Positions 1,379-18,262 of a stretch of DNA of 41,795 nucleotides are shown in pieces. The translations under genes were made by a program, and so were the position numbers. Origin of the DNA: Flavobacteriales bacterium (GTDB lineage Bacteria; Bacteroidota; Bacteroidia; Flavobacteriales_D; Sanyastnellaceae); assembly GCA_020437755.1 (NCBI GenBank), contig JAGQVX010000015.1, positions 1-41,795 of the forward strand. The letters run 5' to 3'. The notes under the pieces were generated by a model that worked only from the letters and a program-made list of their open reading frames with translations, made no database searches and was not told the DNA's origin. Each line of letters starts with the position of its first letter. The first letter of the stretch is position 1.

Positions 1379-2075
1379 TCTCCGCCCGCAAATCACTGAG
1401 CAATTGGATCATCCCGATTTCGGAGGGGAACACCTGCACCGTGTTTTGGGCGATCTGGAACGCATTAATCGGCTATTGTTCAATCATTTACATATTAAAA
1501 AAGCATTCGCCAAATGTATGGGTGGTCATACCCAGGTGCGCCTCACGGATTTTGGCTGCGGCGGCGGCGATGTGCTGCGTAAACTCGTGGATTTCAGTCG
1601 GAAAAAGGGGATTGCCATTCAGGCTTTGGGTCTTGATCACAATGAGCAGGTGCTGGCATACGCCAAATGGAAATCGGCCGACTACCCGGAGATCCGCTTT
1701 GAGCGCTGGGATGCACACAGCACCTCGCACGACCTTTCCCCATGCGACGTGGCGGTTTCGTCCCAATTCATGTACCATCTGGAAGACAACGAACTGATTG
1801 CCCTGCTCGGTCGTATTCGCAGCAATTCCACCCTGGCGGTCATCATTTCCGAAGTCGAAAACCACCGCCTCGCCGCACGTTTATTCCCCCTCTTAGCCCG
1901 CTGCCTCCGCCTCGACCCCACCAGCCTCTCCGACGGCCTGAACTCCATGAAATCGGGGTTCACGGCAAGTCAGCTGAAGTCGCTCGCACACCGTCTTCCC
2001 GGCAATTGGAATGCAAAACGCTACATCCCCTTTCGGCTGTTGCTAACCCATAACCATTCGAATACCGCACCATGA
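1371..2075 (+). CDS. class I SAM-dependent methyltransferase (first of two)
   Basis: I chose the ATG at 1371 (234 aa) because it overlaps the stop of the FAD gene by 8 bp, as elsewhere in this operon, and removes an atypical N-terminal extension. The SAM-binding motif I is DFGCGGG at 60-66, followed by an acidic motif GLDHN near 85-90. Before the SAM domain lies a helix LERINRLL that is also found in the next gene (IERVNRFL), so the two are probably paralogues. The likely role is O- or C-methylation of the type III PKS product, as for SrsB-type enzymes in alkylresorcinol clusters. Which atom is methylated cannot be told from sequence. Confidence 0.85.
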   Translation: MNNLRPQITEQLDHPDFGGEHLHRVLGDLERINRLLFNHLHIKKAFAKCMGGHTQVRLTDFGCGGGDVLRKLVDFSRKKGIAIQALGLDHNEQVLAYAKWKSADYPEIRFERWDAHSTSHDLSPCDVAVSSQFMYHLEDNELIALLGRIRSNSTLAVIISEVENHRLAARLFPLLARCLRLDPTSLSDGLNSMKSGFTASQLKSLAHRLPGNWNAKRYIPFRLLLTHNHSNTAP

Positions 2076-2761
2076 AGCAACGCAGCACCGAGCCCGAAAT
2101 CATGGACGACCTCGAATTGTCGGGCAGCGAACTTGAAGCCACACTACAAACCATTGAACGTGTGAACCGTTTCCTGGGAGGTTCCCGCAATGTCACCAAC
2201 GTGATCGACTCCCTCCTGCCGCTGAACCCCAACCCCACCATTCTCGACGCAGGGTGCGGAAGTGGCGACATACTGCGTGAATTGCAATCGCGTTTTGGAC
2301 AAAACAACGCTCCTGTTCAGCTGGTTGGTCTGGATGCCAACACACATATTCTGGACTATGCACGTGCTCACAGTGAGGGCATAACCTTTTTAAAAGCGAA
2401 TATTTTTGACCACATTATACCCCATCCTCAGGCAACTATAGTCCTGTGCAGTTTGTTTCTGCACCATTTTACCGACCAACAAATCGTAAACTTGCTTCGC
2501 CAATGGAAATCGGCGGGTGTGCATGCCATCCTCATCAACGACTTGCAGCGAGGACACCTTCCCCTGCTGTTGTTTCGATGCATTGCATTTCTGTTTCGCT
2601 TTCCACCAATGGCCCGTTATGACGGCAGCTTGTCTATACGAAAGGGATTTCGCAAAAACGAACTCCGCACCTTGGCCAAGGAAGCCGGGTACAACGCTAT
2701 TGAGATTCGTCCGGTTTGGGCGTTTCGGTACCGAATGATTTTGAAAAATGAACAGTTATAA
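2072..2761 (+). CDS. class I SAM-dependent methyltransferase (second of two)
   Basis: A 229-residue protein that starts inside the stop of the previous methyltransferase (ATGA overlap). SAM motif I is DAGCGSG at 59-65, with GLDAN as the acidic loop near residue 90. The C-terminal part contains a hydrophobic stretch (LPLLLFRCIAFLFRF, about 160-175), perhaps a membrane- or lipid-facing surface, which would suit a long-chain substrate. It overlaps the type III PKS by 14 bp. Two adjacent methyltransferases suggest two methylations or one methylation plus a diverged partner. Confidence 0.85.
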   Translation: MKQRSTEPEIMDDLELSGSELEATLQTIERVNRFLGGSRNVTNVIDSLLPLNPNPTILDAGCGSGDILRELQSRFGQNNAPVQLVGLDANTHILDYARAHSEGITFLKANIFDHIIPHPQATIVLCSLFLHHFTDQQIVNLLRQWKSAGVHAILINDLQRGHLPLLLFRCIAFLFRFPPMARYDGSLSIRKGFRKNELRTLAKEAGYNAIEIRPVWAFRYRMILKNEQL

Positions 2762-3809
2762 CCCTACCATACTCAGCACCTTCACGGCCAATCCGAAGTA
2801 CACGAAAAGTACATCGGAGATTCTACGGGATATGGAAATACACCTGGCCGACCATGATGAACGCTTTCGGCGCAAGGTGCTTCGCATTTTTGAATATGCA
2901 CAGGTGGATCGCCGGTACTCCATAATGCCTGCCGAAGATGTGCTGGCTCCCCTCAGTTTCGAGCAAAAGAACAACCGCTACATGGAGCAGGTGAAGATGT
3001 TGGGTGAGGAAGTGCTGACCGGCGCCTTGGAACGGGCCAACCTAACTCCACACGATATTGACTTTATTATTACGGTAAGTTGCACCGGGTTCATGATTCC
3101 CTCCCTCGATGCCTACCTCATCAATCAGTTGAACATGCGCCAGGATGTGGTACGCCTGCCGGTAACGGAAATGGGCTGTGCCGCGGGAGTTAGTGCTATG
3201 ATTTATGCCGAGCAGTTCCTCCGGGCTAATCCGCAGAAACGTGCGGCCATTGTTTCGGTAGAATCCCCCATGAGCACTTTTCAGCATGGTGACTTTAGCA
3301 TGGCCAACATGGTATCGGCCGCCTTGTTTGGCGATGGCGCCGCCTGTGCCATTCTGGGTCCGTCCGATCAACCCGGCCCACAGGTGCTTGGCAGCGAGAT
3401 GTTTCACTTCTTCGACGAAATCGACATGATGGGCTTTCACTTGTCAGACAGCGGTTTCCGTATGGTGCTATCGCCCGATGTTCCCGAAAAAATTGAATCG
3501 CACTTCGGTGAAATTCTGCATCCCTTCCTGGAGCGATTCGGGCTTACCATTGCTGATATTCAGCATCTTATTTTCCACCCGGGAGGCAAGAAGATCATTC
3601 AATTGGCCGAACAACTATTCGCCGAATTCGAAAAAGACCTTACGGATACCCGTGCCGTTTTGCGCGACTTTGGTAACATGTCGAGCGCTACGGTCCTCTT
3701 TGTACTTGACCGTTTGATGTCGCGAGCGGTTCCGACGGGTGATTATGGGTTGATGCTCAGTTTCGGTCCGGGATTTTCAGCACAACGCGTACTTTTGAAA
3801 TGGCAATGA
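2748..3809 (+). CDS. type III polyketide synthase (chalcone/alkylresorcinol synthase family)
   Basis: At 353 residues this is the usual length for the family. The catalytic triad is complete: Cys144 in TEMGCAAG, His277 in HPGG and Asn310 in GNMSSAT. The C-terminal FGPGF loop (339-343) corresponds to the GFGPG motif lining the cyclisation pocket. The enzyme should load an acyl starter on Cys144, extend it with malonyl units and cyclise it. The following genes encode a type II fatty-acid module with its own ACP, so the starter is probably an ACP-bound fatty acyl chain, giving an alkylresorcinol, alkylpyrone or related phenolic lipid. Family assignment is secure; product class is inferred. The start overlaps the preceding gene by 14 bp, consistent with translational coupling. 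Confidence 0.95.
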   Translation: MNSYNPTILSTFTANPKYTKSTSEILRDMEIHLADHDERFRRKVLRIFEYAQVDRRYSIMPAEDVLAPLSFEQKNNRYMEQVKMLGEEVLTGALERANLTPHDIDFIITVSCTGFMIPSLDAYLINQLNMRQDVVRLPVTEMGCAAGVSAMIYAEQFLRANPQKRAAIVSVESPMSTFQHGDFSMANMVSAALFGDGAACAILGPSDQPGPQVLGSEMFHFFDEIDMMGFHLSDSGFRMVLSPDVPEKIESHFGEILHPFLERFGLTIADIQHLIFHPGGKKIIQLAEQLFAEFEKDLTDTRAVLRDFGNMSSATVLFVLDRLMSRAVPTGDYGLMLSFGPGFSAQRVLLKWQ

Positions 3810-4582
3810 ACAACAACACTTGGGCTATAATCCTGGGCGGCTCGGATGGTATCGGTCTGGCATGCGCCAAAAGGCTCGCCAAAGGCGGATTCAACCTGCT
3901 TATAGTGCATCGCGACCGGCGAGCGCGAGGTGAGGAGCTGTCTGCAATCAATAGTGAACTAATTTCAAATGGAATTGCCACACATTGGATCAATGCTGAT
4001 GCAGCGCTTCCGGCAACGATCGACCGCGCCCTCTATGAATTGAACGAAGTTGACAAAAACGCGAAAGTGAGCTGCCTGCTGCACTCAATTGCGCGCGGCA
4101 ATGTGAAGCCCCTTGCCAATGCCACCGACACACTTACCCGACAAGACCTGCACGTCACCGCCGACCAAATGGCGTTTTGTCTGCTCGACTGGGTAAAAGC
4201 CTTGCACCAGGGCGGACACTTTACCCCGGAAGCCGCAGTCATTGCCCTTACCAGTGAGGGCAGTCAGCGCGCCATACCCCAATATGCCGCCGTAGGGATG
4301 GCCAAAGCAGCGTTGGAAGCCCTTTGCCGATCCATCGCATTGGAATACGCTCCCTTTGGTATCCGTTGCAATAGCGTTCAGCCGGGGGTGTGTTTAACCA
4401 ATAGCTTTTACCGTATTCCCGGACATGAAGAAATCGAGGCCATCACACGAAAGCGCAACCCCGCGGGCCGACTCACCACACCTGAAGATGTGGCCGGAGT
4501 GGTGCATTTCCTCACTACTTCCGAAGCACGGTGGATTAATGGAGCCAATATACCTGTAGATGGAGGCGAACGCATAGCATGA
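3800..4582 (+). CDS. SDR oxidoreductase, FabL-like enoyl-ACP reductase
   Basis: A 260-residue short-chain dehydrogenase with an N-terminal nucleotide motif GGSDGIG at 13-19. The active site reads YAAVGMAK, placing Tyr162 and Lys169 in a Y-x6-K spacing. That spacing is typical of enoyl-ACP reductases (FabI, FabL) and not of ketoreductases (Y-x3-K). The C-terminal NPAGRLTTPEDVAG and PVDGG segments also resemble FabL. It probably reduces enoyl-ACP in the dedicated fatty-acid module. The start is ATG 3800 or ATG 3806; the latter gives the ATGA overlap with the PKS stop that is common in this operon. No ketoreductase gene is present here, so FabG would have to come from elsewhere or this enzyme is bifunctional. 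Confidence 0.85.
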   Translation: MAMNNNTWAIILGGSDGIGLACAKRLAKGGFNLLIVHRDRRARGEELSAINSELISNGIATHWINADAALPATIDRALYELNEVDKNAKVSCLLHSIARGNVKPLANATDTLTRQDLHVTADQMAFCLLDWVKALHQGGHFTPEAAVIALTSEGSQRAIPQYAAVGMAKAALEALCRSIALEYAPFGIRCNSVQPGVCLTNSFYRIPGHEEIEAITRKRNPAGRLTTPEDVAGVVHFLTTSEARWINGANIPVDGGERIA

Positions 4583-5022
4583 TGACGCCCCAACACATAT
4601 TGTCGCTCATCCCGCACCGGGAGCCTTTTCGGTTTATTGATCATCTGGAACATGCCGATAGAGAAGGTGCACAAGGTCACTACACATTTCGCGAAGATGA
4701 GTACTTCTTTAAGGGACACTTTCCCGATAAGCCCATTGTACCCGGAGTCATTTTGGTGGAAGTCATGGCACAAATTGGCGTATTACCCTGTGCCTTGGTG
4801 CACATCAACCCTGCACCCGATTCTCGCATGGAAATGGCGTTCACCCATTGCCACGTCGATTTCCTGCACCCCGTGTATCCGGGCGATACGCTACAGGTGA
4901 GCTCGTCCGTAACCCGCTTTCGACTGGGAAAGATCTATTGCGAGGCGGAGGCCCGGAATCAGCATGGAACACTCTGTTGCAAGGGCAGTCTGCAAGGTAT
5001 TTCTAAATCCACCCCGGCATGA
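4579..5022 (+). CDS. 3-hydroxyacyl-ACP dehydratase, FabZ-like
   Basis: A 147-residue single hot-dog protein. The FabZ signature is intact: GHFPDKPIVPGV with catalytic His47, then VEVMAQ with catalytic Glu61. The length matches FabZ. It should dehydrate 3-hydroxyacyl-ACP to trans-2-enoyl-ACP, the step before the FabL-like reductase encoded just upstream. It overlaps that reductase gene by 4 bp and the ketosynthase gene by 4 bp. The likely role is in the dedicated starter-acyl pathway and not in housekeeping lipid synthesis, given its place inside the PKS operon. Confidence 0.9.
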   Translation: MMTPQHILSLIPHREPFRFIDHLEHADREGAQGHYTFREDEYFFKGHFPDKPIVPGVILVEVMAQIGVLPCALVHINPAPDSRMEMAFTHCHVDFLHPVYPGDTLQVSSSVTRFRLGKIYCEAEARNQHGTLCCKGSLQGISKSTPA

Positions 5023-6290
5023 AGAGACGTGTAGTCATAACCGGGATGGGCGTGGTGAGCTCCATTGGAAACGACCTCTCCACCTTTGAGAAAAATCTAA
5101 GAAACGGAACGTCAGGTATTCGCCATTTTCCCGAACTGGAGCAGTTACAATTTGGTTGTCAGATCGGCAGCCGCCCCGAAATTCCGGCAGAGCTCATCGA
5201 TCTGTACTTCACACCCCTCCAGCAAAAACAACTACAGGCTGATGGTGTGCTGTACGGAGCACTCGCCTCGGCAATGGCCTGGCGTGATGCGCAGTTGGCA
5301 GTAGGTGAAACTGCCGACTGGGACAGTGGATGTATACTCGGGGCCGGATTGGCGGGGGCCGATGTGATTCGTGATTCGGTATATCACATTGACGCCGGCA
5401 ACACCCGACGACTGGGGAGTACTACAGTACCTCAAACCATGTCGAGTGCCATTAGTGCATTTGTGGGTGGGTATTTGGGGCTGGGCAACCGTGTTTCGAC
5501 CAATGCCTCTGCCTGCAGCACCGGAACTGAGGCTATGATCCTCGCCGCTGAGCACATTGCTGCGGGGAAAGCCGAACGCATGCTGGCGGGAGGGTGCGAC
5601 AGTGGTAGTCCATATGTGTGGGCAGGTTTCGACGCAATGCGCGTCACCACGCGCAAGCACAACACCACGCCCACCCTCGGTTCTCGACCGATGAGTGCTA
5701 CGGCCTCGGGCTTTGTACCCGGGGGAGGAGGAGCGGCTCTTGTGCTGGAAAGTCTGGAATCAGCCATGCAGCGAGGCGCACGCATTTACGCCGAAATTCG
5801 TGGCGGATTCATCAATAGCGGGGGGCAACGCGGCGGAGGGACGATGACTGCTCCAAATCCCGAAGGCATAAAACGCTGCATTCAAGGAGCTCTCAACGAT
5901 GCCGAAATAACCGCCCGCGATCTACAGCTCATTTCCGGTCACCTCACCGCCACCATTTTTGATGCACGCGAAGTGGAATTGTGGAGAACAGTGTTGTCTC
6001 AAGACTCCTCCTTTTTCCCCTACCTCAACGCCTTGAAAGGACTTACCGGACATTGTCTGAGCGCTTCCGGCGCATTGGAAGGCGTGGCCACTGCACTTCA
6101 AGTTTACGCACAATTTGTGCATGGGTCGGTCAACTGTGAGGATCTTCATCCCGAGATAAGTGCTATCATTGACCCCGAAAACATTCCCGTGCAAAGCCTG
6201 GATGTGCCCATCGAGTTTGCGGCCAGCAGCAGCTTTGGTTTTGGCGATGTAAACAGTGTGGTCATTTTACAACGATTCGAACATGGATGA
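5019..6290 (+). CDS. beta-ketoacyl-ACP synthase, KAS I/II (FabB/FabF) type
   Basis: A 423-residue condensing enzyme with the Cys-His-His triad: Cys166 in NASACSTG, His308 in SGHLTATIFD and His345 in LKGLTGHCLSASG, with Lys340 at the expected place. The C-terminal SFGFGD replaces the usual SFGFGG. It would elongate acyl-ACP with malonyl-ACP. The loop around the first His differs from the usual NAHGTST of FabF, so it may belong to a secondary-metabolism subclass such as those in aryl polyene or dialkylresorcinol clusters. It is not part of a chain-length-factor pair, because no second KS is nearby. It sits between the dehydratase and ACP genes with short overlaps. Confidence 0.92.
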   Translation: MKRRVVITGMGVVSSIGNDLSTFEKNLRNGTSGIRHFPELEQLQFGCQIGSRPEIPAELIDLYFTPLQQKQLQADGVLYGALASAMAWRDAQLAVGETADWDSGCILGAGLAGADVIRDSVYHIDAGNTRRLGSTTVPQTMSSAISAFVGGYLGLGNRVSTNASACSTGTEAMILAAEHIAAGKAERMLAGGCDSGSPYVWAGFDAMRVTTRKHNTTPTLGSRPMSATASGFVPGGGGAALVLESLESAMQRGARIYAEIRGGFINSGGQRGGGTMTAPNPEGIKRCIQGALNDAEITARDLQLISGHLTATIFDAREVELWRTVLSQDSSFFPYLNALKGLTGHCLSASGALEGVATALQVYAQFVHGSVNCEDLHPEISAIIDPENIPVQSLDVPIEFAASSSFGFGDVNSVVILQRFEHG

Positions 6291-6534
6291 TAAGGAGATT
6301 GAAGAGAAACTCAGGGCAATCATAAAACCCTACCTGCCCGAGGAAGGCTTGTTGGATGGGATTTCCCGTGAAACCCACATGCTGAACGACCTCAAGATCA
6401 ACTCGGCACATTTAGTAGATATCATTCTGGACGCTGAGGACGCTTTCGAAATTCACATTTCCGATGATGACGCTGAGCGCATGATGACCGTTCAGGACGC
6501 CATCGACGTCATTCAAAGTCACCTGAATGCATGA
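6283..6534 (+). CDS. acyl carrier protein with atypical serine motif
   Basis: The ATG at 6283 overlaps the ketosynthase stop and gives an 83-residue acidic protein, the usual ACP size. The expected four-helix pattern is seen, with the attachment serine most likely Ser41 in LKINSAHLVDI, followed by helix II (LVDIILDAEDAF). Most ACPs have D-S-L around this serine; here it is N-S-A. It is probably activated by the PPTase encoded directly downstream and carries the acyl chain for the KS, DH and ER of this operon before hand-over to the type III PKS. Confidence 0.88.
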   Translation: MDDKEIEEKLRAIIKPYLPEEGLLDGISRETHMLNDLKINSAHLVDIILDAEDAFEIHISDDDAERMMTVQDAIDVIQSHLNA

Positions 6535-7079
6535 TTGGCATTGATGTCATTGATTGGGATCAAGCGCGCAAATCGAGGTGGGACGAACAGCGTTTTCGCG
6601 AGAAATTCTGCACTGGGCGCGAGCTAATCCATTTGGCGAATGCCGAAAACGTATTCTTCGAGACGTGGAAAATATGGGCAGCCAAGGAAGCGGCTTTTAA
6701 GGCCTGGAGCATGTTGAGCCATGAAACCACATTTCGCCCCCGGGACTGGGAATTCGACGGACATGCCCATATCCACAAGGTTAACGACAATGCTTGCACC
6801 ATGCACATAGAGTGGATACACCTCGAAAATGGATTGGTTTCCTGGGTTCAGGCAGGTGCGCCATTCGGCAAATGTGAGGGCGGCGCTCTTCGCATCAACG
6901 ACAGTGGCCGAAAGGAACCACAGGTTTATGTATTTGGCGAATGCCTGAATACCGTGACGATGGAAAGTAAAAAGCTGCCCCGATATGGGAAAATAACTGA
7001 TTTACAGAACACTAACCATTGGATCAGCCGCTCACATCATGGGCGGTACGACGTATGGATGATTGCCCGCGAGGCGTAA
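6531..7079 (+). CDS. 4'-phosphopantetheinyl transferase superfamily protein
   Basis: A 182-residue protein that begins in the ACP stop codon (ATGA). It has the two family motifs: GID at 3-5, with Asp5 as likely magnesium ligand, and WAAKEAAFK at 49-57 with Lys52, Glu53 and Lys57. It should transfer the phosphopantetheine arm from CoA to a serine of a carrier protein. Given the overlap, the partner is almost certainly the ACP at 6283-6534. Its size lies between AcpS (about 120 aa) and Sfp (about 220 aa), and the C-terminal half is not recognisable to me. Confidence 0.85.
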   Translation: MIGIDVIDWDQARKSRWDEQRFREKFCTGRELIHLANAENVFFETWKIWAAKEAAFKAWSMLSHETTFRPRDWEFDGHAHIHKVNDNACTMHIEWIHLENGLVSWVQAGAPFGKCEGGALRINDSGRKEPQVYVFGECLNTVTMESKKLPRYGKITDLQNTNHWISRSHHGRYDVWMIAREA

Positions 7080-7502: not shown

Positions 7503-7548
7503 ATCAGGTTTCATGACCGAGGTCACCATTAAGCTGCATACTTACTCG

Positions 7549-7556
7549 TATATTTG
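7549..7556 (+). promoter_or_regulatory. -7 box ahead of the metal island, leaderless geometry
   Basis: TATATTTG is a perfect match to TAnnTTTG. It lies four bases (GATT) before a GTG at 7561 that begins a protein with a good N-terminal membrane helix. This box decides the start of the next gene: the upstream ATG at 7513 would place the promoter inside the coding region. Confidence 0.5.
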
Positions 7557-7560
7557 GATT

Positions 7561-7941
7561 GTGAAACAATGGGTTTCTTATATTATGATCGTGCTTGGTG
7601 TTGCGTTGTTGTCGGTAGTATCGACGCGCAATGCCGTGATTTACTGGTCGTTTACCATTAATCAGGATTACATTGCGGCACATCTGTGCGAGCAGAAAGA
7701 CGATGCCAACAATTCATGTCAGGGTCATTGTTACCTGGAAAAGCAATTGCAGGATCAATCAGACGCTTCTCAACCACTGGAACGACCTGAACTTGAAGTG
7801 AAGTACGACTGGATTACTTCGACGGCAGTCGCTTGTGCATTTGGCGAATGCCACCACTCTTTTAAACCCACTTCACTCCCTTTGAAGGAGGAAGTACGGA
7901 CTCCTCAGCTGACGGATATTTTTCATCCACCCCGGATTTGA
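7561..7941 (+). CDS. small Cys-containing membrane-anchored protein, Bacteroidota type
   Basis: I prefer the GTG at 7561 (126 aa) because the product then opens with a single membrane helix (about residues 5-22) and the -7 box TATATTTG ends four bases upstream; an in-frame ATG at 7513 is the alternative. After the helix comes FTINQDYIAAHLCEQK, then SCQGHCYLEKQL, giving Cys43, Cys53 and Cys57 with a nearby His. From memory this resembles a small uncharacterised Bacteroidota family with a LCE...CxGxCYL pattern often found near metal-related genes. Its position ahead of MbnP/MbnH-like genes suggests a role in metal binding or redox in the periplasm, but no function is established. Confidence 0.7.
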   Translation: MKQWVSYIMIVLGVALLSVVSTRNAVIYWSFTINQDYIAAHLCEQKDDANNSCQGHCYLEKQLQDQSDASQPLERPELEVKYDWITSTAVACAFGECHHSFKPTSLPLKEEVRTPQLTDIFHPPRI

Positions 7942-7983
7942 CGCGACATACGTGTTTAGTTAGTCAATCTGAAAAAAATCGAA

Positions 7984-8919
7984 ATGAAATCAATTATCAC
8001 CGGAGTGCTTTTGCTCTTCGGTAGTGTCGTAATGGCGTGTGACCATTGTGGTATGTACCTCAATATGCGGCCCAATGATTTCTCACATTTCGTCGGCATT
8101 TTTTACACCAGCAATGTGTATGAAGGGTTGGTACCGGTTACCACCAAATCAATGATGCTGCGACATGGGGATGAATTGGTATTGCCTGATTTTCAGGGAA
8201 ATACTTTGCGGGATCGCTATCAGATTACGGAGCTTCGCGCGCGGTATTCTTTCAACCAGAAATGGTTTTTATGGGGAAGGATTCCGTTTGTGCAAAATGC
8301 CCGGTATGTGAATAATGAGCTTACCCAATCGGCGAGTGGCGTGGGAGACCCCATGCTATTTGTAGGGCACAACCTCTACAACTCGCGTTCAGCCGACTCG
8401 ACCGAGGTGGCCCAGCGGTTGGAATGGAGTGTAGGAGTAAAGTTTCCATTGGGAGCTACACAATTGAAGTACGGCAATGAATACGTAGATCACGACCTAC
8501 AGCCAGGTTCGGGGAGTTACGACTTCCTCCTTTCAGCCAATTATATGGTCTTTTGGAAGCGTATCGGCTTGTCCAATCAGGTCATGTACCGCTGGAACGG
8601 TCCGAATTTGGGAAAATACGCATTCGGGAATCTGCTCACCGACAATCTGACCTTTATAGGCAAGCTCCGGGCGAATGACTGGACCATCATGCCTCAGGCA
8701 GGAATATCGGCACGGTGGTTCAGTCCGGACACCGACTCGGGAGAAATCCTCGTGAATTCGGGAGGCACACGTTATTTATGGTCTGCAGGTATGGAAATCA
8801 ACTACAAGAATGTATCCATACAAGGCGTTTACCTGCAACCCATTCAAGAGAAATTAGAAGGAACTCAACTTCCTCAAAAAAACGCTATAACCATTAATGT
8901 AAAATACTTTATATCATGA
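7984..8919 (+). CDS. outer-membrane beta-barrel-like protein with N-terminal CxxC
   Basis: A 311-residue exported protein. A signal peptide (about 1-18) is followed at once by CDHCGMYLNM (Cys19, His21, Cys22, Met24, Met28), a cluster of soft-metal ligands at the mature N terminus. The rest alternates polar and aromatic residues in beta-strand style, with repeated WxxG and YxF segments, and ends in KYFIS, which suits a barrel closing strand. The VMAC sequence could also serve as a weak lipobox, making Cys19 a lipid attachment site. It overlaps the first MbnP-like gene by 4 bp, so the two are likely made together. A role in copper or iron passage at the outer membrane is inferred. Confidence 0.7.
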   Translation: MKSIITGVLLLFGSVVMACDHCGMYLNMRPNDFSHFVGIFYTSNVYEGLVPVTTKSMMLRHGDELVLPDFQGNTLRDRYQITELRARYSFNQKWFLWGRIPFVQNARYVNNELTQSASGVGDPMLFVGHNLYNSRSADSTEVAQRLEWSVGVKFPLGATQLKYGNEYVDHDLQPGSGSYDFLLSANYMVFWKRIGLSNQVMYRWNGPNLGKYAFGNLLTDNLTFIGKLRANDWTIMPQAGISARWFSPDTDSGEILVNSGGTRYLWSAGMEINYKNVSIQGVYLQPIQEKLEGTQLPQKNAITINVKYFIS

Positions 8920-9662
8920 AATTTAAATCATCCTTATATATGCCGGCATTGATGCTGGTAGCTCTTGTGGCAGTTGCACTTACCGGTTGCAAGAAAGACG
9001 AAGAGCCTGTGGATTGCAAGCCGGAAGTACGTGACTTGCAATTGTTCTTCAACGACAAATATGCCGGTGAAGATTTTGCCTTGAATTCTCCCTACACCCT
9101 CGACGGTGTGGAGGTGAAGTTCACACGCATCAGCTATTACTTGTCCAACTTTGTGGGCATGGACGATGAAGGTGGCATGGAAATGTACGACGGCAAAGTG
9201 TTGTTGGTAGATGCCGGAGACAATTCGGGACACAGTCTGGGACTGATTGGATTGGATCACCTGCATATGCTGAACTTTATTGTTGGTTTGGACTCCCTCA
9301 CCAACCATGGCGATCCCATTACGGCGGAAGCTCCATTGAATGATCCCGACATGAGCTGGAACTGGAATCCAACAGCAGGATACAAGTTTATCCGTGTTGA
9401 CGGTGAGCGTGACATTGACGGAGACGGAACGTTTGAGGCGTTCGAAATCCACGTGGCTACCGATGCTCTGAAGCGCGATGTTTCGCTCATGGTGCATGAG
9501 AGCCCAACGGCTTCAGGATTGGATGTGCAGGTATATGTAGACTACTACAACTTCTTTTCAGGGGTAGCTTTTTCGGCTGAAACCATGGAAGGAACACATG
9601 GCGATGGTGTGACCACTGTAAGTGTGGCCAACGGAGCCGCCACGGCATTCTCTGTTGATTAA
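8916..9662 (+). CDS. MbnP-like copper-binding lipoprotein (copy 1)
   Basis: A 248-residue lipoprotein with a lipobox ending LTGC (Cys25). The body matches what is known of MbnP: RISYYLSN at 71-78, LLVDAG, a GLDSLTNHG segment near 124-132, then DMSWNWNPTAGYKF. The last contains the WxW motif as Trp148-Asn-Trp150, with Met146 just before it. In methanotroph MbnP the first Trp of WxW is oxidised to kynurenine by the diheme enzyme MbnH, and this is needed for Cu(I) binding by His and Met. Two MbnH-like genes follow downstream. Copper binding here is inferred from the family, not shown. The C-terminal part has an acidic DIDGDGTFE loop that could bind calcium. Confidence 0.85.
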   Translation: MKFKSSLYMPALMLVALVAVALTGCKKDEEPVDCKPEVRDLQLFFNDKYAGEDFALNSPYTLDGVEVKFTRISYYLSNFVGMDDEGGMEMYDGKVLLVDAGDNSGHSLGLIGLDHLHMLNFIVGLDSLTNHGDPITAEAPLNDPDMSWNWNPTAGYKFIRVDGERDIDGDGTFEAFEIHVATDALKRDVSLMVHESPTASGLDVQVYVDYYNFFSGVAFSAETMEGTHGDGVTTVSVANGAATAFSVD

Positions 9663-9670
9663 ATGAATTT

Positions 9671-9693
9671 CCCCCCGTTGTATCGACGGGGGG
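9671..9693 (+). terminator. strong G+C hairpin between the two MbnP-like genes
   Basis: CCCCCCGT at 9671-9678 pairs perfectly with ACGGGGGG at 9686-9693 around a 7-nt loop, and is followed by ATAATCTTCTTT. It lies in the 47-bp gap between the two MbnP-like genes. It may act as an intrinsic terminator or attenuator, or as a 3' stabiliser of the upstream message, allowing different levels for the two gene pairs. The downstream T content is only moderate. Confidence 0.6.
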
Positions 9694-9709
9694 ATAATCT
9701 TCTTTAGAA

Positions 9710-10456
9710 ATGAAAAGAATTCTGTTTGTACTTCTAGCCATAACGGCACTCACTTCCTGTCTGAAAAAGGAACCCGAAGACCAGAAAGGAACCATTCGTA
9801 TAGATATGGTGGCCCGGGTTGAAGGCGAGCCTTTTGAGCTGGGTGAGATTTATACCAACGTGCTTACTGATCGCTACTGGACGGAGATCTTCAAGGCCTA
9901 TGTTTCGAATATCCGCGCCCATCGCATGGATGGCAGTTCGGAACTGCTGGCACAGGTATTTTTGGCCAATTTCGACGGAGGTAACACCGTATATGCCGAA
10001 GTGGATCCCGGAACATTTTCAGGATTGTCTTTTGGCATAGGCGTTCCTGAAGAGCTGAACAAAGGCAATGATCCCAGCCAATACCCCAATGATCATCCAT
10101 TGAGCGCCATTGGTTCGGAAGGGATGTTCTGGACCTGGAATTCAGGGTATATATTCACCATGTTCCAGGGAAAAGCCGACACACTCGACGGACAGGACGT
10201 AACCCCTTTACATCCCTTTGCCTACCATTGTGGAGAGGATTTTCTGTACATCGACAAAAGCTACGACACCGAATTCACTCTGGAGGCGTGCAAAACCAAG
10301 ACGTTCACTATAGTGTTTGATGTAGATCGATTTTGGTATTCGCAATCCGACACCCTCGACGTAGCGAAGGACTACCTCACGCATACATCGGGAAATGTTG
10401 AGCTTGCCGAGCGATGCACAGCATTCATCGAAGAAGCGGTTCATCTTGAAGAATGA
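9710..10456 (+). CDS. MbnP-like copper-binding lipoprotein (copy 2)
   Basis: A 248-residue lipoprotein with lipobox LTSC (Cys17). It shares the MbnP layout with the upstream gene: KAYVSNIRAH near 62-71, FGIGVPEELNKGNDP near 108-122, then EGMFWTWNSGYIF with Trp141-Thr-Trp143 as the WxW motif and Met139 before it. It differs clearly from copy 1 in the C-terminal half, which has two cysteines (CGEDF and EACKTK). It overlaps the first diheme peroxidase gene by 4 bp, an arrangement expected for an MbnP/MbnH pair. Confidence 0.85.
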   Translation: MKRILFVLLAITALTSCLKKEPEDQKGTIRIDMVARVEGEPFELGEIYTNVLTDRYWTEIFKAYVSNIRAHRMDGSSELLAQVFLANFDGGNTVYAEVDPGTFSGLSFGIGVPEELNKGNDPSQYPNDHPLSAIGSEGMFWTWNSGYIFTMFQGKADTLDGQDVTPLHPFAYHCGEDFLYIDKSYDTEFTLEACKTKTFTIVFDVDRFWYSQSDTLDVAKDYLTHTSGNVELAERCTAFIEEAVHLEE

Positions 10457-11475
10457 AAAATTCGGGGATCTTCATATTGATCTTGTTTGTGCTGCAAGGC
10501 TGCGTAAAAACAGACTTGCCCGGACCCGATTTGCTGGATTTCCCCTATGAACTGGAGCTTCCCGCGGGATTCCCTCCCCCTCCAATTCCCGAGGATAACG
10601 CCCTCACCCAAAACCGTGTGGCGTTGGGCAAGATATTGTTTCACGACGTGCGATTGAGTGGCGACAACAGTATCAGTTGTGCCGATTGTCATTTTCAGGA
10701 ATTTGCCTTTGCCGATCCAAATCCGGTAAGTATAGGTGTAGATGATGCGGTAGGCGTTCGAAACTCCCCTTCACTTGCCAACGTTGCCTATGTTGACAGT
10801 CTGTTTTGGGATGGCGGTGTTCCCACACTTGAATTGCAAGTCTTGGCTCCCATTCATAATCCGTTGGAAATGAATGAGCATATTCGCGACATTCTCGACA
10901 AGCTCCATGACGACCAACATATTCAGGATCTTTCGCTTTCCGCTTATGGTAGAAAGTTGGATATGTATGTTGTAACCCGCGCATTGGCTGCCTTTGAACG
11001 CACATTGATTTCGGGAAACAGTCGATTTGATCAGTACTATTACGAAGGGCAAGACGTTTTTACTGAGGATGAGTTGGCCGGCTGGGAGTTGTTTCAGAGC
11101 GCAAACGCGCAATGCAGTTCCTGCCACAGTGGGTTCAACTTCACCAACAATTCATTTGAGAACATCGGGTTGTACGAAGAATACACCGATGCCGGACGGG
11201 AACGCATAACATTGGATCCGGCGGATAATGGAAAGTTCCGCGTACCCGGATTGCGTAATGTTGCCGTCACAGCTCCTTACATGCACGACGGATCAGTGGC
11301 TACATTGGAAGACGTGGTAGAATTGATTAATGCCGGAGGTGTTGGACATCCGAATCAAAGTGAGCTGATTCACCCGCTCAATCTCTCAACATTGGAAAAG
11401 CAACAATTGGTAGCTTTTTTAAAGACATTGACTGACGAGGAGTTCATTACCAATCAGGCATTTCAGGTAGAATAG
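10453..11475 (+). CDS. diheme cytochrome c peroxidase/MauG family lipoprotein, MbnH-like (copy 1)
   Basis: A 340-residue lipoprotein (lipobox LQGC, Cys17) with two c-type heme motifs: CADCH at 76-80 and CSSCH at 221-225. The family segments FWDGG (118-122) and TAPYMHDGSVATLEDV (about 273-288) are present, as is RNSPSLANVAY near 103-113. Classical members reduce peroxide. The MbnH branch uses high-valent diheme iron to oxidise a Trp of MbnP to kynurenine. Overlap with an MbnP-like gene favours the MbnH-type role, with the second MbnP-like protein as partner. General peroxide detoxification remains possible. Heme is attached in the periplasm. Confidence 0.9.
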   Translation: MKNSGIFILILFVLQGCVKTDLPGPDLLDFPYELELPAGFPPPPIPEDNALTQNRVALGKILFHDVRLSGDNSISCADCHFQEFAFADPNPVSIGVDDAVGVRNSPSLANVAYVDSLFWDGGVPTLELQVLAPIHNPLEMNEHIRDILDKLHDDQHIQDLSLSAYGRKLDMYVVTRALAAFERTLISGNSRFDQYYYEGQDVFTEDELAGWELFQSANAQCSSCHSGFNFTNNSFENIGLYEEYTDAGRERITLDPADNGKFRVPGLRNVAVTAPYMHDGSVATLEDVVELINAGGVGHPNQSELIHPLNLSTLEKQQLVAFLKTLTDEEFITNQAFQVE

Positions 11476-11477
11476 GT

Positions 11478-11485
11478 TAACTTTA
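11478..11485 (+). promoter_or_regulatory. -7 box before the second diheme gene, leaderless geometry
   Basis: TAACTTTA matches TAnnTTTG at seven of eight positions and ends four bases (CAGC) before the ATG at 11490. It begins right after the stop of the first diheme gene. It may let the second peroxidase and the YkgJ gene be transcribed apart from the upstream genes. Confidence 0.4.
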
Positions 11486-11489
11486 CAGC

Positions 11490-12575
11490 ATGAACAGGTA
11501 TCGCAATACATTTTTGGCTGCAATTCTCATCGGAATCCTCGCTATTGGGTGTCGAAAGGAATTTGCAGAACCACCTTGTGAGACTCCTGTTTCGGGCACT
11601 CCATATGTGTTTCCAACCATGCCATTCTTTCCGGAAATGGATATCCCTGAAAACAACCCCCTTACACAAGAGAAAGTGGAACTGGGGCGACACCTGTTTT
11701 GGGAGAAAGCACTTTCAGGTAACAATACCATGTCTTGCGGCACTTGCCACCTTCCAACCAACAATTTCTCCGATCCCGCTCAATTTTCGACGGGGATCAA
11801 TGGTGAGATCGGTAATCGCCAGGCGATGGCTTTGGTGAATTTAGGCTGGGCCAACGATTTTTTCTGGGATGGTCGGGCATTGACGTTGGAAGATCAGGTC
11901 ATTCAGCCGGTGACCAATCCTATTGAAATGGCACAAGAGTGGCCTGAAGCGCTTGAAGAACTGGCGGCGATTGATATTTATCCCCCGATGTTTGAAGCAG
12001 CGTTTGGTTCGCCTGAGATCACTCAAACCCGAGCTGCAAAGGCCATGGCATCTTTCCTGCGCACCATGGTTTCGTATCAGTCCAAATTTGATTTATCGCG
12101 CATAGGAATGGCGCAGTTGTCGGAATCAGAACAGCGCGGACTGGACCTTTTTCAGCGCGAGGGTGGCGATCCGTTGTATGGAGCCGATTGTTTTCACTGT
12201 CATGGATTCGGCGCAATGCAGTTCTCCGATTATCTGCCACGCAACAATGGACTGGATTCCATTTTTACCGATTTGGGATATGGTGGCATCAGTGGTGATC
12301 CTCTGCTAATGGGTAAATTCAAGACACCCTCACTTCGCAATGTTGAGCTTTCAGCGCCGTACATGCACGACGGACGCTTCAATACGTTGGAAGAAGTGAT
12401 AGAACATTACAATTCCGGTGGTTTGCCAAGCCCTACCATTGACCCCTTCATGAAGTACACGGATGGTGGCCTCACCTTAACCGACATGGACAAGGAAGAC
12501 CTCGTAAACTTCCTAAAAACCCTTACGGATACAGCTTACGTTAACAATCCGGCATATCAGGATCCCTTCAACTGA
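11490..12575 (+). CDS. diheme cytochrome c peroxidase/MauG family lipoprotein, MbnH-like (copy 2)
   Basis: A 361-residue paralogue of the upstream enzyme, with lipobox AIGC (Cys21) and heme motifs CGTCH at 83-87 and CFHCH at 234-238. It shares FFWDGRALTLEDQV (about 124-137) and SAPYMHDGRFNTLEEV near residue 290. It is exported and membrane-anchored. With two MbnP-like proteins in the same locus, each peroxidase may serve one partner. The heme spacing differs slightly from copy 1 and the second heme sits in a different loop (GGDPLYGADCFHCHG), so partner or substrate choice may differ. It overlaps the YkgJ gene by one base. Confidence 0.9.
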   Translation: MNRYRNTFLAAILIGILAIGCRKEFAEPPCETPVSGTPYVFPTMPFFPEMDIPENNPLTQEKVELGRHLFWEKALSGNNTMSCGTCHLPTNNFSDPAQFSTGINGEIGNRQAMALVNLGWANDFFWDGRALTLEDQVIQPVTNPIEMAQEWPEALEELAAIDIYPPMFEAAFGSPEITQTRAAKAMASFLRTMVSYQSKFDLSRIGMAQLSESEQRGLDLFQREGGDPLYGADCFHCHGFGAMQFSDYLPRNNGLDSIFTDLGYGGISGDPLLMGKFKTPSLRNVELSAPYMHDGRFNTLEEVIEHYNSGGLPSPTIDPFMKYTDGGLTLTDMDKEDLVNFLKTLTDTAYVNNPAYQDPFN

Positions 12576-13072
12576 TGGATGAATTCCCCTATTCAGCAGA
12601 GCTTGACAAAGCCCGAAGTCAGCTAAAACCCACCAAGAAACTCATGCAAAAAGCGCGGAAGGAGAAGCCTTCTCGATTGGATGCACTGTTTCACGAAGCA
12701 CATGATGACGTATTCTCCCATTTTGATTGTCTGACCTGCGCCAACTGCTGCAAAACCACCAGCCCCATATTCCGCGAAATCGATATCGAACGTCTTTCGA
12801 GTCACCTTCGCATGAAACCGGGGCACTTCATTGAAACTTACCTCAAAAAAGACACCGACGGACTGTGGATGCTCAAGTCGTCTCCTTGTCCATTTCTGGG
12901 CGATGACAACTATTGTGCAGTATATGAATCACGTCCGGGAGCCTGCAGGGAATATCCCCACACCGATCGAAAGAATATGTACCAGATCCTGCCATTGACC
13001 ACCCGCAATACGATGGTGTGTCCTGCTGTACATTTGATTGTTGAGAAAATCAGAATTGGCCTACAATCGTAA
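12575..13072 (+). CDS. YkgJ family cysteine-cluster protein
   Basis: A 165-residue cytosolic protein with the family's metal-binding signature: Cys52, Cys55, Cys58 and Cys59 in CLTCANCC, then Cys105 (PCPF), Cys114 (YCAVY), Cys124 (ACREYP) and Cys149 (VCP). Members probably hold a zinc or iron-sulfur centre; their biochemical role is unclear. Its ATG sits in the stop of the second peroxidase gene, so it is probably the last gene of the metal island and is co-translated with it. Confidence 0.85.
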   Translation: MDEFPYSAELDKARSQLKPTKKLMQKARKEKPSRLDALFHEAHDDVFSHFDCLTCANCCKTTSPIFREIDIERLSSHLRMKPGHFIETYLKKDTDGLWMLKSSPCPFLGDDNYCAVYESRPGACREYPHTDRKNMYQILPLTTRNTMVCPAVHLIVEKIRIGLQS

Positions 13073-13204: not shown

Positions 13205-16200
13205 ATGCAGATGGCAAGGAAAATATTGTTGATCCGCCCTTGGCTGATTCTCGGCCTGCTTGTACCCTTCGGAGCAATGGCTCAATGTCCGGAAGTCTTT
13301 GACTTTTACGGTTCAACGACCGACTCACCGTACTGGTATGACTGTTCGGGAAACAACTACACATTCAATCTTCAATCGCCCGATAACTGGGGAGAGTATA
13401 CGATTGATTGGGGTGATGGCAGTGCCGTTACGACAGGATCGTCATGGAATTCGCCATCGGCCATTACGCACGTGTACACCGCTACCGTAGACACATTTCT
13501 TGTTACCATTACAGAAGTCAATACCGGCTGTGTGGTGGAGGGAGTAATGGTGCTTGAAGAAGCCTCCAGCGCCTCGATTCAGATTCCAATAGGTGGATTG
13601 ACACAGGCTTGTGCTCCACAACTTATGGAGTTCATCAACTCAAGTACCAACGTATCAGAAACTACCATTTTCACTTGGGATTTTGGCGACGGCAGTCCAC
13701 AGGAAACGTACGACTACACCAACTGGGGACAAACCGTGAGTCACGTGTACCAACCCGGTACGGTAGATTGTGAAACCGAGGTCTCCCTTACAGCAGAAAA
13801 CTACTGCAACACCATTCAGGGTGGAGAGAGTGAAGCCACCTTCAATCCTATCCGAATATGGGACATTGATGAAGCAGCGATTACGGCTTCAGCAACGGTT
13901 CTGTGCTATCCCGACACCATTGTGGAGTTCACAAACACCACACAACGCAACTGTTTGTTTCAGGGAAATATCTTCCAGCGTTACGAATATTGGAACTTTG
14001 GAGATTATTGGGGAGAGGGACAGGACAGTATCATCGACTGGACGCCCTGGCCACCAACATTCCCTCATGAAATAGCTTATCCGGGAATTGGAACCTATGA
14101 GGTCATGATGCTCGACAGTAATTATTGCGGTATTGACACCGCCTACATTACCATCGAGATTGTGCCGCCTCCATCAGCCGGACTGTCAGCTACAGGCGAT
14201 ACCATATGTGTCGGAGAGCCCATCACGTTCTTTCAGGAATCCAGCAGTTCGGCCAATTCCTATCAATGGAATTTTGGGGATGGAATCGGCTGGTTACCTA
14301 CTGGTGGTGGAAACATAACCTATGTGTACAACAATCCGGGCACGTACAATGTGTGCACGGCGGTCAGTATTTCATCAAGCTCCAGCGGATGTGCTGATAC
14401 GGCTTGTGTACCTGTTACCGTGCTTCCAAGTCCGATAGCATTCTTCACTCCCGACAATGTAAGCGGCTGCGACTCGCTCACGGTGGTATTCACCGATGGA
14501 TCGAGCGGAGCAACAGGTTGGGAATGGACTTTTGACGTCCCACCTTTTTCCTATACCGGCTTTGACCCTCCGCCAATCTCTTACAACAGTACGGGAAACT
14601 ACGTCGCTACACTGACCGTGGAGAGTATTAATGGTTGTCTGGATACCTATCAAGAAGTCATCAGCGTATTCGAAGCACCAGTACCCGATTTCCTGGCCAA
14701 CAATGTATGTGAAGGCGAACAGGCGGTATTTACCGATATATCCACCTCTGATGCCGGAGATCCAATCATTGGCTGGAACTGGGATTTTGGAGATACAGGA
14801 ACATCAGTGGATGAAAATCCAACACATATTTATCCTTCTACCGGTTCATATGACGTAACACTGACTGTTTCCACTGCGAGTTGCTCTTCTACTGCCGTAT
14901 TCCCTATTGCCGTTGAACCTGCTCCAACGGCCGATATAGCTCTTGACAATGATATGGGATGCTCTCCGTTGTTGGTCAATTTTGAGAACAATAGTATAGG
15001 CGCTGACAACTACGTATGGAACTTTGGCGATGGCAACGCTTCCGCCGCAGAGGAGCCTTCGAATACGTTCCTTAATTTGGGCAGCACTGACACCACGTAC
15101 ACCATCGTTATGACGGCAAGTACCGCCTTTGGGTGTAGTTCGGTGGATTCATTGCAAGTGACGGTTATGCCCGGGGCTCAAGCCTCGTATACCGACAACA
15201 GCATGCCTCCTTCTTGCGCTCCCTTTGATGCGCAGTTCATCAACACATCCGTTGGAGCGACCAGCTATCTATGGGATTTTGGAGATGGCACACCTACCTC
15301 AACCGAGACCGATCCTGCCCATTTTTATGAAAACACCACAGGATTCCTCGAGGTTTACGATGTGACATTGATCGCCTATGCGGCAAATGGATGTAATGAC
15401 ACCGTAATGAATGGAGTAACTGTTTATCCAACGGCAGATTTCTCCTTCGATGTTTGGCCTGATTCGGGGTGCGCGCCATTGTTTGTGCAGATGCCTTTTA
15501 TATCAGGTGTAAATTCATATTTCTGGGATTTTGGCGACAATCAAACGTCGACCTTTCCGAATCCCACTCACATGTTTGAAAATACCACCACAGATCCAAT
15601 CGTTTTCGACATTACCTTCATTGGAATCTCGCCGTTTGGATGTGTCGATACCGCGATGAGCGAAGTTTTGGTTAATCCACAGCCACTGGCTCAAATGACC
15701 GCAGATATTAACTCCGGTTGTTCACCCATTACCGTGGAGTTTGAAAACTTGAGTATCCAGGCCGATTCCTATTTATGGAACTATGGCGACGGTGAAACGG
15801 AAACAACCAGTTCGACATTTCACTCACACACCTTTGTCAACCTCACCAATGACGTGATCGTTTACGAAGTGGAGCTGACGGCTATATCGGACGACGGCTG
15901 CGACGACACGTTTATTATTCCTATTCAAGTATTTCCACAGGTCATTGCCGAAATCGAAGACCCTGGAGATGGATGTGCCCCCTACGTGGTAGAATTCGGA
16001 AACAACTCCCTGAATGCCGACTCGTATGACTGGGATCTCGGCAATGGGCTGCAAAGTATCAACACCAATCCTACAGCAACGTATGTAAATCTAGGATCTA
16101 CGGACACGACCTATACGGTTTGCATGATCGCCGAATCACCCTATGGATGTTCGGATGAAACCTGTATCGATATTGTCGTTCACCCGGCTCCTATTGCAGA

Positions 16201-18262
16201 ATTTGACATGAGTGATGATGCCGCGTGCCATCCGGCTCCGATCCAATTCATCAACAATTCCCAATGGGCCGATAGCTATACGTGGAACTATGGTGATGGG
16301 AATTCTTCTGATACTTCGGCATTGGTGCACACCCACGTTTTTGAGAATACCGGGATTAATGACAACAGCTACCTGATTGAACTCATTGCTACCACGCAAT
16401 ATGGTTGTGCAGACACCACATCGGCCACATTTACCATTTATCCTCAGGTCATTGCCGCTTTTTCTTTGGATTCTATGGGGTGCTCTCCCTTGCAGGCCTT
16501 CTTTGTAAATCAAAGCGTAGGCGCTACAGCAGGATTCGAATGGGATTTCGGCGATGGTCAGACTTCATTCCAAACCAATCCATCGCACATTTACGTGAAC
16601 AATTCGGGAGCGGACACTACCTATTACTGCACGCTGATCGCTTCCAATGTTCAAGGCTGCAACGACACCACTCAGATTGGAATTGATGTTTACCCCACGC
16701 CAGTGGCGCAAATTGCCATTGACACCACATTGGGTTGCTATCCGCTGCAGGTGGTTTTCGAAAACCAAACCATTGGAGCCGACAGCTACCAGTGGGTTTA
16801 TGGTACCGGAGAGGTAAGCACCGTGGAAGATCAATTCCACACTTATACGTATTACAATTTTACTGACCAGCCTGTTACCTACAATGTATTTCTCAACGCC
16901 TATACGGACGAGGGCTGCACCAGTACCGATCAGATTTCAATTGATGTCCTTCCTGAACTCGAGGCCGATTTTGATGCTCCTGACGAAGGATGTTCACCAT
17001 TCGAGGTATCGTTTGACAACAATAGCGTGGGAGCTATGAGTTACCAGTGGGACTTTGGAGACGGCAATACACACAACATTGCCAACCCGACCCATATATT
17101 TTACAATGACGGCACTACCGATACAACCTACACAGTGATGCTCGTTGCATTGTCTGCATATGGTTGTTATGACACGGCTTTCTATGACATCACGGTATTT
17201 GCAACGCCATTTGCCAATTTCACAGCTACTCCTGAGAGTCAGCAATTCCCTGCGTCCACCATTGACATTACCGACCTAAGTGTGGCTGGAGATGTGAATT
17301 ATGACTGGACGCTGGGCGACGGCAGTACCTCCGGTGACCCCGAGTTAACTACACACACGTACACTTCCTGGGGCGTGTACACCATTACACTGGAAATTAC
17401 CAATGGCGCATGTAGTTCAGAAGCACAACGCAGCGTCGAAATTCTTCCCCCCGACCCTATAGCCGAGATGGACATTCCGGAACAGACGGGATGTGCACCG
17501 CTTACGGTACATTTCACAAGCAACTCACAGTACGGTGCTGCCTTCGAATGGGACTTTGGTGATGGAGGATCATCATCGGTAGAGAACCCCGTATATACGT
17601 ACTACCAACCCGGAACCTATGACGTATCGCTCACCGTGACGGGCTTCGATGGAGTTACGACTGACGTAATCGTCATACAAGATGCCATCGAGGTTTATCC
17701 GGTGGCCATTGCTGCATTTACCGTTACACCAAATGAAGTCTCGATTCCAAGTCAACCCGTTTACTGCATCAATTTGTCGCAAAACGCTACGTCGTATCTA
17801 TGGGATTTCCACGATGGCACCACTTCAACCGAATTCAACCCCATCCATTACTACCAGGAGGAAGGGTTGTATGATATTTCTTTAATTGCCTACAATGAGT
17901 ATGGCTGTACGGATACCTTCCTCGTTGCTGAAGCAGTCCATGCTAAGGCATTAGGTTCTATCGAATTCCCGAATGCCTTCACGCCGAACACCGGAAATTC
18001 CTCGGGAGGTGTCTACGATCCATGGGCGTTTAACAATGATATTTTCTTCCCCGTTTACTACGGAGTTGTGGAGTACCAACTCCAGATCTTCAACAAATGG
18101 GGAGAGCTCCTTTTTGAATCCTCCGACCCCAAAGTAGGTTGGGACGGATACTATAGGGGACAGCTTTGTCGCGAAGATGTGTACGCCTGGAAAGCCTGGG
18201 TGCGATTCGTGGATGGCGAAGAAATAAAACAAGCCGGTGACGTAACTCTGTTGATCAAGTGA
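13205..18262 (+). CDS. giant PKD-repeat surface protein with T9SS type B sorting domain
   Basis: A 1685-residue secreted protein (start ATG 13205 or 13211). It has a signal peptide ending GAMAQ (about 1-27), then about 18 PKD-like units recognised by variants of WDFGDG. It ends in a C-terminal gliding-motility type domain (about 1590-1685) with FPNAFTPN, FNKWGELLFES, GWDGYYRG and DVYAWK. Several units share a start GCSPxxVxFxN and a second half ending xxGCxDT, so most have a pair of cysteines that could form a disulfide. The C-terminal domain directs export by the type IX system and surface attachment, usually with a PorP/SprF partner, and one is encoded two genes downstream. The likely role is adhesion or a surface stalk. 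Units with divergent cores (WTFDVP, WVYGTG) are still in register. Confidence 0.92.
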   Translation: MQMARKILLIRPWLILGLLVPFGAMAQCPEVFDFYGSTTDSPYWYDCSGNNYTFNLQSPDNWGEYTIDWGDGSAVTTGSSWNSPSAITHVYTATVDTFLVTITEVNTGCVVEGVMVLEEASSASIQIPIGGLTQACAPQLMEFINSSTNVSETTIFTWDFGDGSPQETYDYTNWGQTVSHVYQPGTVDCETEVSLTAENYCNTIQGGESEATFNPIRIWDIDEAAITASATVLCYPDTIVEFTNTTQRNCLFQGNIFQRYEYWNFGDYWGEGQDSIIDWTPWPPTFPHEIAYPGIGTYEVMMLDSNYCGIDTAYITIEIVPPPSAGLSATGDTICVGEPITFFQESSSSANSYQWNFGDGIGWLPTGGGNITYVYNNPGTYNVCTAVSISSSSSGCADTACVPVTVLPSPIAFFTPDNVSGCDSLTVVFTDGSSGATGWEWTFDVPPFSYTGFDPPPISYNSTGNYVATLTVESINGCLDTYQEVISVFEAPVPDFLANNVCEGEQAVFTDISTSDAGDPIIGWNWDFGDTGTSVDENPTHIYPSTGSYDVTLTVSTASCSSTAVFPIAVEPAPTADIALDNDMGCSPLLVNFENNSIGADNYVWNFGDGNASAAEEPSNTFLNLGSTDTTYTIVMTASTAFGCSSVDSLQVTVMPGAQASYTDNSMPPSCAPFDAQFINTSVGATSYLWDFGDGTPTSTETDPAHFYENTTGFLEVYDVTLIAYAANGCNDTVMNGVTVYPTADFSFDVWPDSGCAPLFVQMPFISGVNSYFWDFGDNQTSTFPNPTHMFENTTTDPIVFDITFIGISPFGCVDTAMSEVLVNPQPLAQMTADINSGCSPITVEFENLSIQADSYLWNYGDGETETTSSTFHSHTFVNLTNDVIVYEVELTAISDDGCDDTFIIPIQVFPQVIAEIEDPGDGCAPYVVEFGNNSLNADSYDWDLGNGLQSINTNPTATYVNLGSTDTTYTVCMIAESPYGCSDETCIDIVVHPAPIAEFDMSDDAACHPAPIQFINNSQWADSYTWNYGDGNSSDTSALVHTHVFENTGINDNSYLIELIATTQYGCADTTSATFTIYPQVIAAFSLDSMGCSPLQAFFVNQSVGATAGFEWDFGDGQTSFQTNPSHIYVNNSGADTTYYCTLIASNVQGCNDTTQIGIDVYPTPVAQIAIDTTLGCYPLQVVFENQTIGADSYQWVYGTGEVSTVEDQFHTYTYYNFTDQPVTYNVFLNAYTDEGCTSTDQISIDVLPELEADFDAPDEGCSPFEVSFDNNSVGAMSYQWDFGDGNTHNIANPTHIFYNDGTTDTTYTVMLVALSAYGCYDTAFYDITVFATPFANFTATPESQQFPASTIDITDLSVAGDVNYDWTLGDGSTSGDPELTTHTYTSWGVYTITLEITNGACSSEAQRSVEILPPDPIAEMDIPEQTGCAPLTVHFTSNSQYGAAFEWDFGDGGSSSVENPVYTYYQPGTYDVSLTVTGFDGVTTDVIVIQDAIEVYPVAIAAFTVTPNEVSIPSQPVYCINLSQNATSYLWDFHDGTTSTEFNPIHYYQEEGLYDISLIAYNEYGCTDTFLVAEAVHAKALGSIEFPNAFTPNTGNSSGGVYDPWAFNNDIFFPVYYGVVEYQLQIFNKWGELLFESSDPKVGWDGYYRGQLCREDVYAWKAWVRFVDGEEIKQAGDVTLLIK

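Follow-up and report, generated by a model that had tools for sequence, protein, structure and literature searches.

Biochemical knowledge of kynurenine-copper sites comes from methanotrophs. The kynurenine of methanotroph MbnP was reportedly described in 2021, and MbnP of Methylosinus trichosporium OB3b, said to be the sole member studied, reportedly needs it for copper binding. The OB3b proteins (7l6g for MbnP, 6e1c for the di-heme enzyme MbnH) share with the locus described here the MbnP fold with its M-x-W-x-W motif and His, and the MbnH fold with two c-hemes and an inter-heme Trp; the Tyr heme ligand is found in the second of our two enzymes, H2. Unlike in OB3b, we find Bacteroidota lipoproteins, few Cys in the MbnP-like members, no methanobactin genes, two MbnP-like proteins (P1, P2), two unequal MbnH-like enzymes (H1, H2) and the partners S, O and Y. 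A comparable arrangement is that of methanotroph CorA/CorB and MopE, where a copper-repressible kynurenine-copper protein is encoded beside a di-heme peroxidase gene (PMC3621798, PMC3912023). The CorA site, in contrast to that of MbnP, consists of two His and kynurenine and not of Met and His, and no marked sequence similarity of MbnP to MopE/CorA was reported (PMC3621798). MauG is likewise a di-heme enzyme oxidising Trp of a partner protein and has, as H2, a Tyr-ligated 6c heme and the inter-heme Trp, but its substrate is methylamine dehydrogenase and the Tyr is absent from our H1. BthA of Burkholderia is a natural di-heme enzyme devoid of inter-heme Trp, like most relatives of H1, but it keeps the Tyr ligand and has no known pairing with MbnP or with a second di-heme enzyme. 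That MbnP/MbnH pairs also exist outside methanobactin operons has been known since 2013 (PMC3621798), and this part is therefore not new; the operon with its tandem of unequal H1 and H2 was not found described in the open-licence PMC papers searched.

The DNA analysed (the window, 41,795 nt in all) is from contig JAGQVX010000015.1 of a Flavobacteriales bacterium (Sanyastnellaceae; assembly GCA_020437755.1). The original prediction placed two MbnP-like and two MbnH-like genes in the order P1, P2, H1, H2 at 8916-12575, and ORF coordinates agree: the four are consecutive and all on the + strand. The conserved unit exceeds four genes and reads S-O-P1-P2-H1-H2-Y, at 7513-13072:

7513..7941, + strand: S, small membrane protein, with invariant Cys, Gly and PP in the family alignment
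7984..8919, + strand: O, outer-membrane beta-barrel-like protein, CDxCG following its signal peptide, recurring in relatives
8916..9662, + strand: P1, MbnP-like lipoprotein (PF20243, 1e-24; match to 7l6g)
9670..9694, + strand: GC-rich hairpin between P1 and P2, terminator/attenuator-like (-22 kcal/mol)
9710..10456, + strand: P2, MbnP-like lipoprotein (PF20243, 3e-28)
10453..11475, + strand: H1, divergent MbnH-like di-heme lipoprotein (TIGR04039, 2e-85; 6e1c, TM 0.85)
11490..12575, + strand: H2, canonical MbnH-like di-heme lipoprotein (TIGR04039, 4e-77)
12575..13072, + strand: Y, CxxCxxCC (YkgJ-like) protein (PF03692, 7e-14)

The order S-O-P-P-H-H is also found at G016/L148, L149, L186 and L190, in records of Flavobacteriales, Sphingobacteriales and Chitinophagales. 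A lipobox Cys is present in all four of P1, P2, H1 and H2, as expected from the membrane anchoring that had been proposed. The absence of methanobactin genes, also part of that proposal, holds for the source genome (G000, 99% complete), where no match to the MbnB family PF05114 was obtained and where P1 and P2 are the only PF20243 genes. MbnP itself is found in 38/40 close relatives and 78/296 sampled genomes of the phylum. The hairpin at 9670-9694 is perfect (z -3.8) and may cause the enzymes to be expressed less than P1. In the relative L148 P1 and P2 overlap, so that no P1-P2 hairpin of this kind exists there. Occurrence of the Bacteroidetes -7 box TAnnTTTG near S was at chance level in the window.

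Assignment of the lipoproteins to the MbnP family was confirmed by HMM: P1 and P2 reach 87.8 and 99.4 bits with Pfam PF20243 (gathering cut-off 27), and both miss the 140-bit cut-off of the NCBIfam MbnP equivalog TIGR04052 (42.6 and 46.7 bits). The AF2 model of P1 (pLDDT 91) has MbnP 7l6g as best match (Foldseek E 2.9e-10, Z 16.6 over 200 residues, rmsd 3.0), the next structural match having Z 5.3; P2 was assigned to the MbnP fold by sequence profile only. The Bacteroidota MbnP profile aligns GM-x-W-x-W and the His with GMAWNW and HVG of 7l6g, which gives as site residues M146, W148, W150 and H179 in P1 (lipobox C25) and M139, W141, W143 and H173 in P2 (lipobox C17). Thus the WxW motifs initially noticed (W148-N-W150 and W141-T-W143) stand, while the Met said to precede them lies at position -2 (M146, M139) and is not directly adjacent. 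W148 and W141 are the predicted kynurenine positions. The complete set of Met, two Trp and His is present in 144/178 MbnP relatives. Across these 178 proteins loss or retention of WxW tends to go with that of the His: the His is kept in 162/163 proteins with WxW versus 8/15 without (Fisher p 5e-8, without correction for kinship).

P1 and P2 are 22% identical. The P tree places P1 among proteins encoded in other S-O-P operons (99*; members of its clade come from G001, G016 and G031) and P2 among GMFWTW proteins (98*). Low identity and separate clades rule out a recent tandem duplication, and P1 and P2 are, on this evidence, old paralogs. Other MbnP relatives depart from this type. Six (L096, L099, L101, L106, L107 and L115) are about 311-327 aa long, with M-H-W-G-W and, at the C-terminus, a T9SS sorting domain (TIGR04183), and no lipobox found, and are therefore probably secreted or surface-attached; one of them, L099, belongs to the window's own genus. 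At L137, L142 and L144, two MbnP relatives devoid of WxW are followed by an H with Trp.

Both H1 and H2 match Pfam CCP_MauG (PF03150). With the NCBIfam MbnH model TIGR04039, a hypothetical equivalog, they obtain 286.7 and 259.7 bits, below its curated cut-off of 362.85 bits. Because P1, P2, H1 and H2 all stay below the NCBIfam cut-offs, we use the wording 'MbnP/MbnH-like'. The two enzymes nevertheless score far higher on MbnH than on MauG models, with 6e1c as top PDB match, and the H1 model (pLDDT 90) has 6e1c as its best match. Both are lipoproteins with two CxxCH motifs, as first proposed. H2 carries all four MbnH/MauG features: hemes at C83-H87 and C234-H238, inter-heme Trp W126, distal Glu E146 and axial Tyr Y307. 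H1 has three of them (hemes C76-H80 and C221-H225, W119, E139), the axial heme Tyr of MauG/MbnH being replaced by Ile292. A GGxxH His (H299 in window H1, 11347-11349) is present in 32/39 H1-type proteins versus 4/96 others; a role as a replacement heme ligand is not supported, as H1-type proteins with Tyr carry GGxxH too. Acidic residues after the lipid Cys, a surface-export signal, are similar in P and most H; only H1 is lower. The source genome also encodes a third MbnH-like di-heme lipoprotein (L278:4757-5890, on G000:C15), which keeps Trp and Tyr and has no adjoining MbnP gene.

To what extent the two enzymes differ can be judged from 42 non-redundant operons with tandem H genes. The inter-heme Trp is carried by exactly one H in 39/42, by both in 3/42 (the window, L116 and L140) and by neither in 0/42. 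In 37 of the 39 one-Trp operons, which being related are not 39 independent events, the Trp-bearing H is the second gene; at L103 and L204 the two H genes stand in reverse order and the Trp has changed place with them. The axial Tyr is kept by the second H in 42/42 and replaced in 15 first H. First and second H form separate groups in the H trees, and H1 and H2 are, judging from these trees, separate old lineages that are not equivalent; each is also seen in operons with a single P. The inter-heme Trp is kept by six H1-type proteins encoded by the sole H gene of their operon. Six other single-H operons (first tree set) have an H1-type protein devoid of it, another H being possible elsewhere in the genome. 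In many one-P operons the only H is of the H2 type (20 single-H rows of one-P operons lie in the H2-type part of the tree), so this type seems sufficient there.

Window H1 is an exception in that it has kept inter-heme Trp119 and lost the axial Tyr. In BthA and MauG, changing the axial Tyr to His abolishes the bis-Fe(IV) signal, with H2O2 reduction retained in BthA; BthA has a Ser at the inter-heme Trp position, yet forms bis-Fe(IV) (PMC6405878). Loss of Trp alone is thus no proof of lost function. Taken together, the axial Tyr results and the natural lack of Trp in BthA make H2 the likely kynurenine-former, and H1 is predicted to be altered, not necessarily inactive.

From homology, fold, conserved residues, conserved operon and H1/H2 asymmetry, we infer kynurenine formation, copper binding and a division of labour. 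With a probability of about 0.6, the locus is a Bacteroidota copper-handling operon working on the MbnP/MbnH principle, with H2 as the kynurenine-former and H1 as an accessory. At the di-heme centre of H2, H2O2 (or O2) would be used to convert the first Trp of the WxW motif of both P1 and P2 into kynurenine. The modified P1 and P2 would each hold one Cu(I) with the conserved Met and His, and these Cu(I) lipoproteins would act at the cell envelope to acquire or buffer copper, S and O being putative partners. H1 would be an accessory di-heme protein issued from an ancient duplication, which lost one element of the MauG-type relay (the Trp in nearly all relatives, the axial Tyr in the window genome). 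Most likely it has lost the ability to form a stabilised bis-Fe(IV) oxidant itself, and may instead reduce H2O2, pass electrons or assist H2. Such a conserved operon would bring kynurenine-copper chemistry to common flavobacteria. Since the tandem enzymes differ at exactly the key residues of the MauG family, they also constitute a natural experiment on the residues needed for Trp oxidation.

A variant of this scheme, possible in our view but unlikely, makes H1 and H2 a joint kynurenine machine, in a complex or sequentially, in which H2 would supply the MauG-type oxidant and H1 would be a selected relay-defective variant controlling H2O2 or electron flow; if true, it would mean that tandem operons retain one fully equipped and one altered enzyme. 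Two other readings dispense with the kynurenine. P proteins might bind copper or another metal in its absence, H proteins having some other redox role. Kynurenine is indeed postulated here by homology only, and the MbnP relatives devoid of WxW at L137, L142 and L144 still adjoin an H; joint loss of WxW and His, and the kynurenine that OB3b copper binding is said to require, make this improbable. The second takes both enzymes for ordinary bacterial cytochrome c peroxidases, which detoxify H2O2 and modify no Trp, and would suit their membership of the CCP_MauG superfamily and the missing axial Tyr of H1. It is difficult to reconcile with scores on MbnH models that far exceed those on MauG models, with 6e1c as top PDB match, with the Tyr, not the Met of bCcP, at the ligand position of window H2 and other second-position H, and with H genes directly adjoining MbnP genes throughout the phylum, and we consider it quite improbable. 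We give equally little credit to H1 being a decaying, functionless copy (a pseudo-enzyme in the loose sense): Trp or Tyr are lost at catalytic positions and their replacements are many and varied, but H1 has kept, over a deep lineage, both CxxCH motifs and the distal Glu along with many invariant positions, the lineage-specific GGxxH His occurs in 32/39 and the gene is retained in the operon across several orders.

The original prediction further suggested that each H may act on a particular P, H1 modifying one and H2 the other. Two P and two H do occur together here and at 7 further non-redundant loci, and L138 has the arrangement P-H-P-H, in which each H type is represented once. This suggestion is not supported by the operon counts, which are 90 1P1H, 35 1P2H, 1 1P3H, 8 2P2H (window included) and 5 2P1H among non-redundant operons. 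The 35 operons combine one P with both H types and the 5 combine two P with one H; moreover, the H1/H2 split occurs with P of different clades and window H2 is closest to H2 of one-P operons. Counts and trees therefore indicate that doubling of P and doubling of H were separate events. One-to-one pairing was rejected on these grounds, and dedicated pairs are very unlikely.

S has the motif C-x9-C-x-G-x-C (C59, C69 and C73, counted from ATG 7513) and a C-terminal PP; both are invariant in the family alignment, and the family is present in 79/198 phylum genomes. The start of S is uncertain, GTG 7561 fitting relatives better than ATG 7513. Elsewhere, S-family genes adjoin TonB receptors, SCO1 and PCuAC, O is also near SCO1 and PCuAC, and in Pedobacter (L226) SCO1 adjoins S-P-H-O. 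The neighbours of the S family are the best copper evidence beyond homology, and neighbours and homology together suggest a copper role for the operon. O gave no Pfam or NCBIfam match; in relatives it is encoded either between S and P or downstream of H, and a divergent O relative matches PF13557. Y follows H2 in many relatives and is the conserved end of P-H1-H2-Y.

Further observations concern the surroundings. A PKD-repeat protein is encoded at 13205-18262 of the window, and its relatives follow P-H1-H2-Y at 43 loci. S-O-P-H1-H2 also occurs on a Saccharospirillaceae-labelled contig (L223), a possible case of transfer from Bacteroidota or of mis-binning. Directly upstream of the operon, a + strand run at 263-7079 encodes a FAD enzyme, methyltransferases, a ketosynthase-like protein, a reductase and an ACPS, and resembles by eye a pigment or polyene cluster, the ACPS alone being assigned by Pfam.
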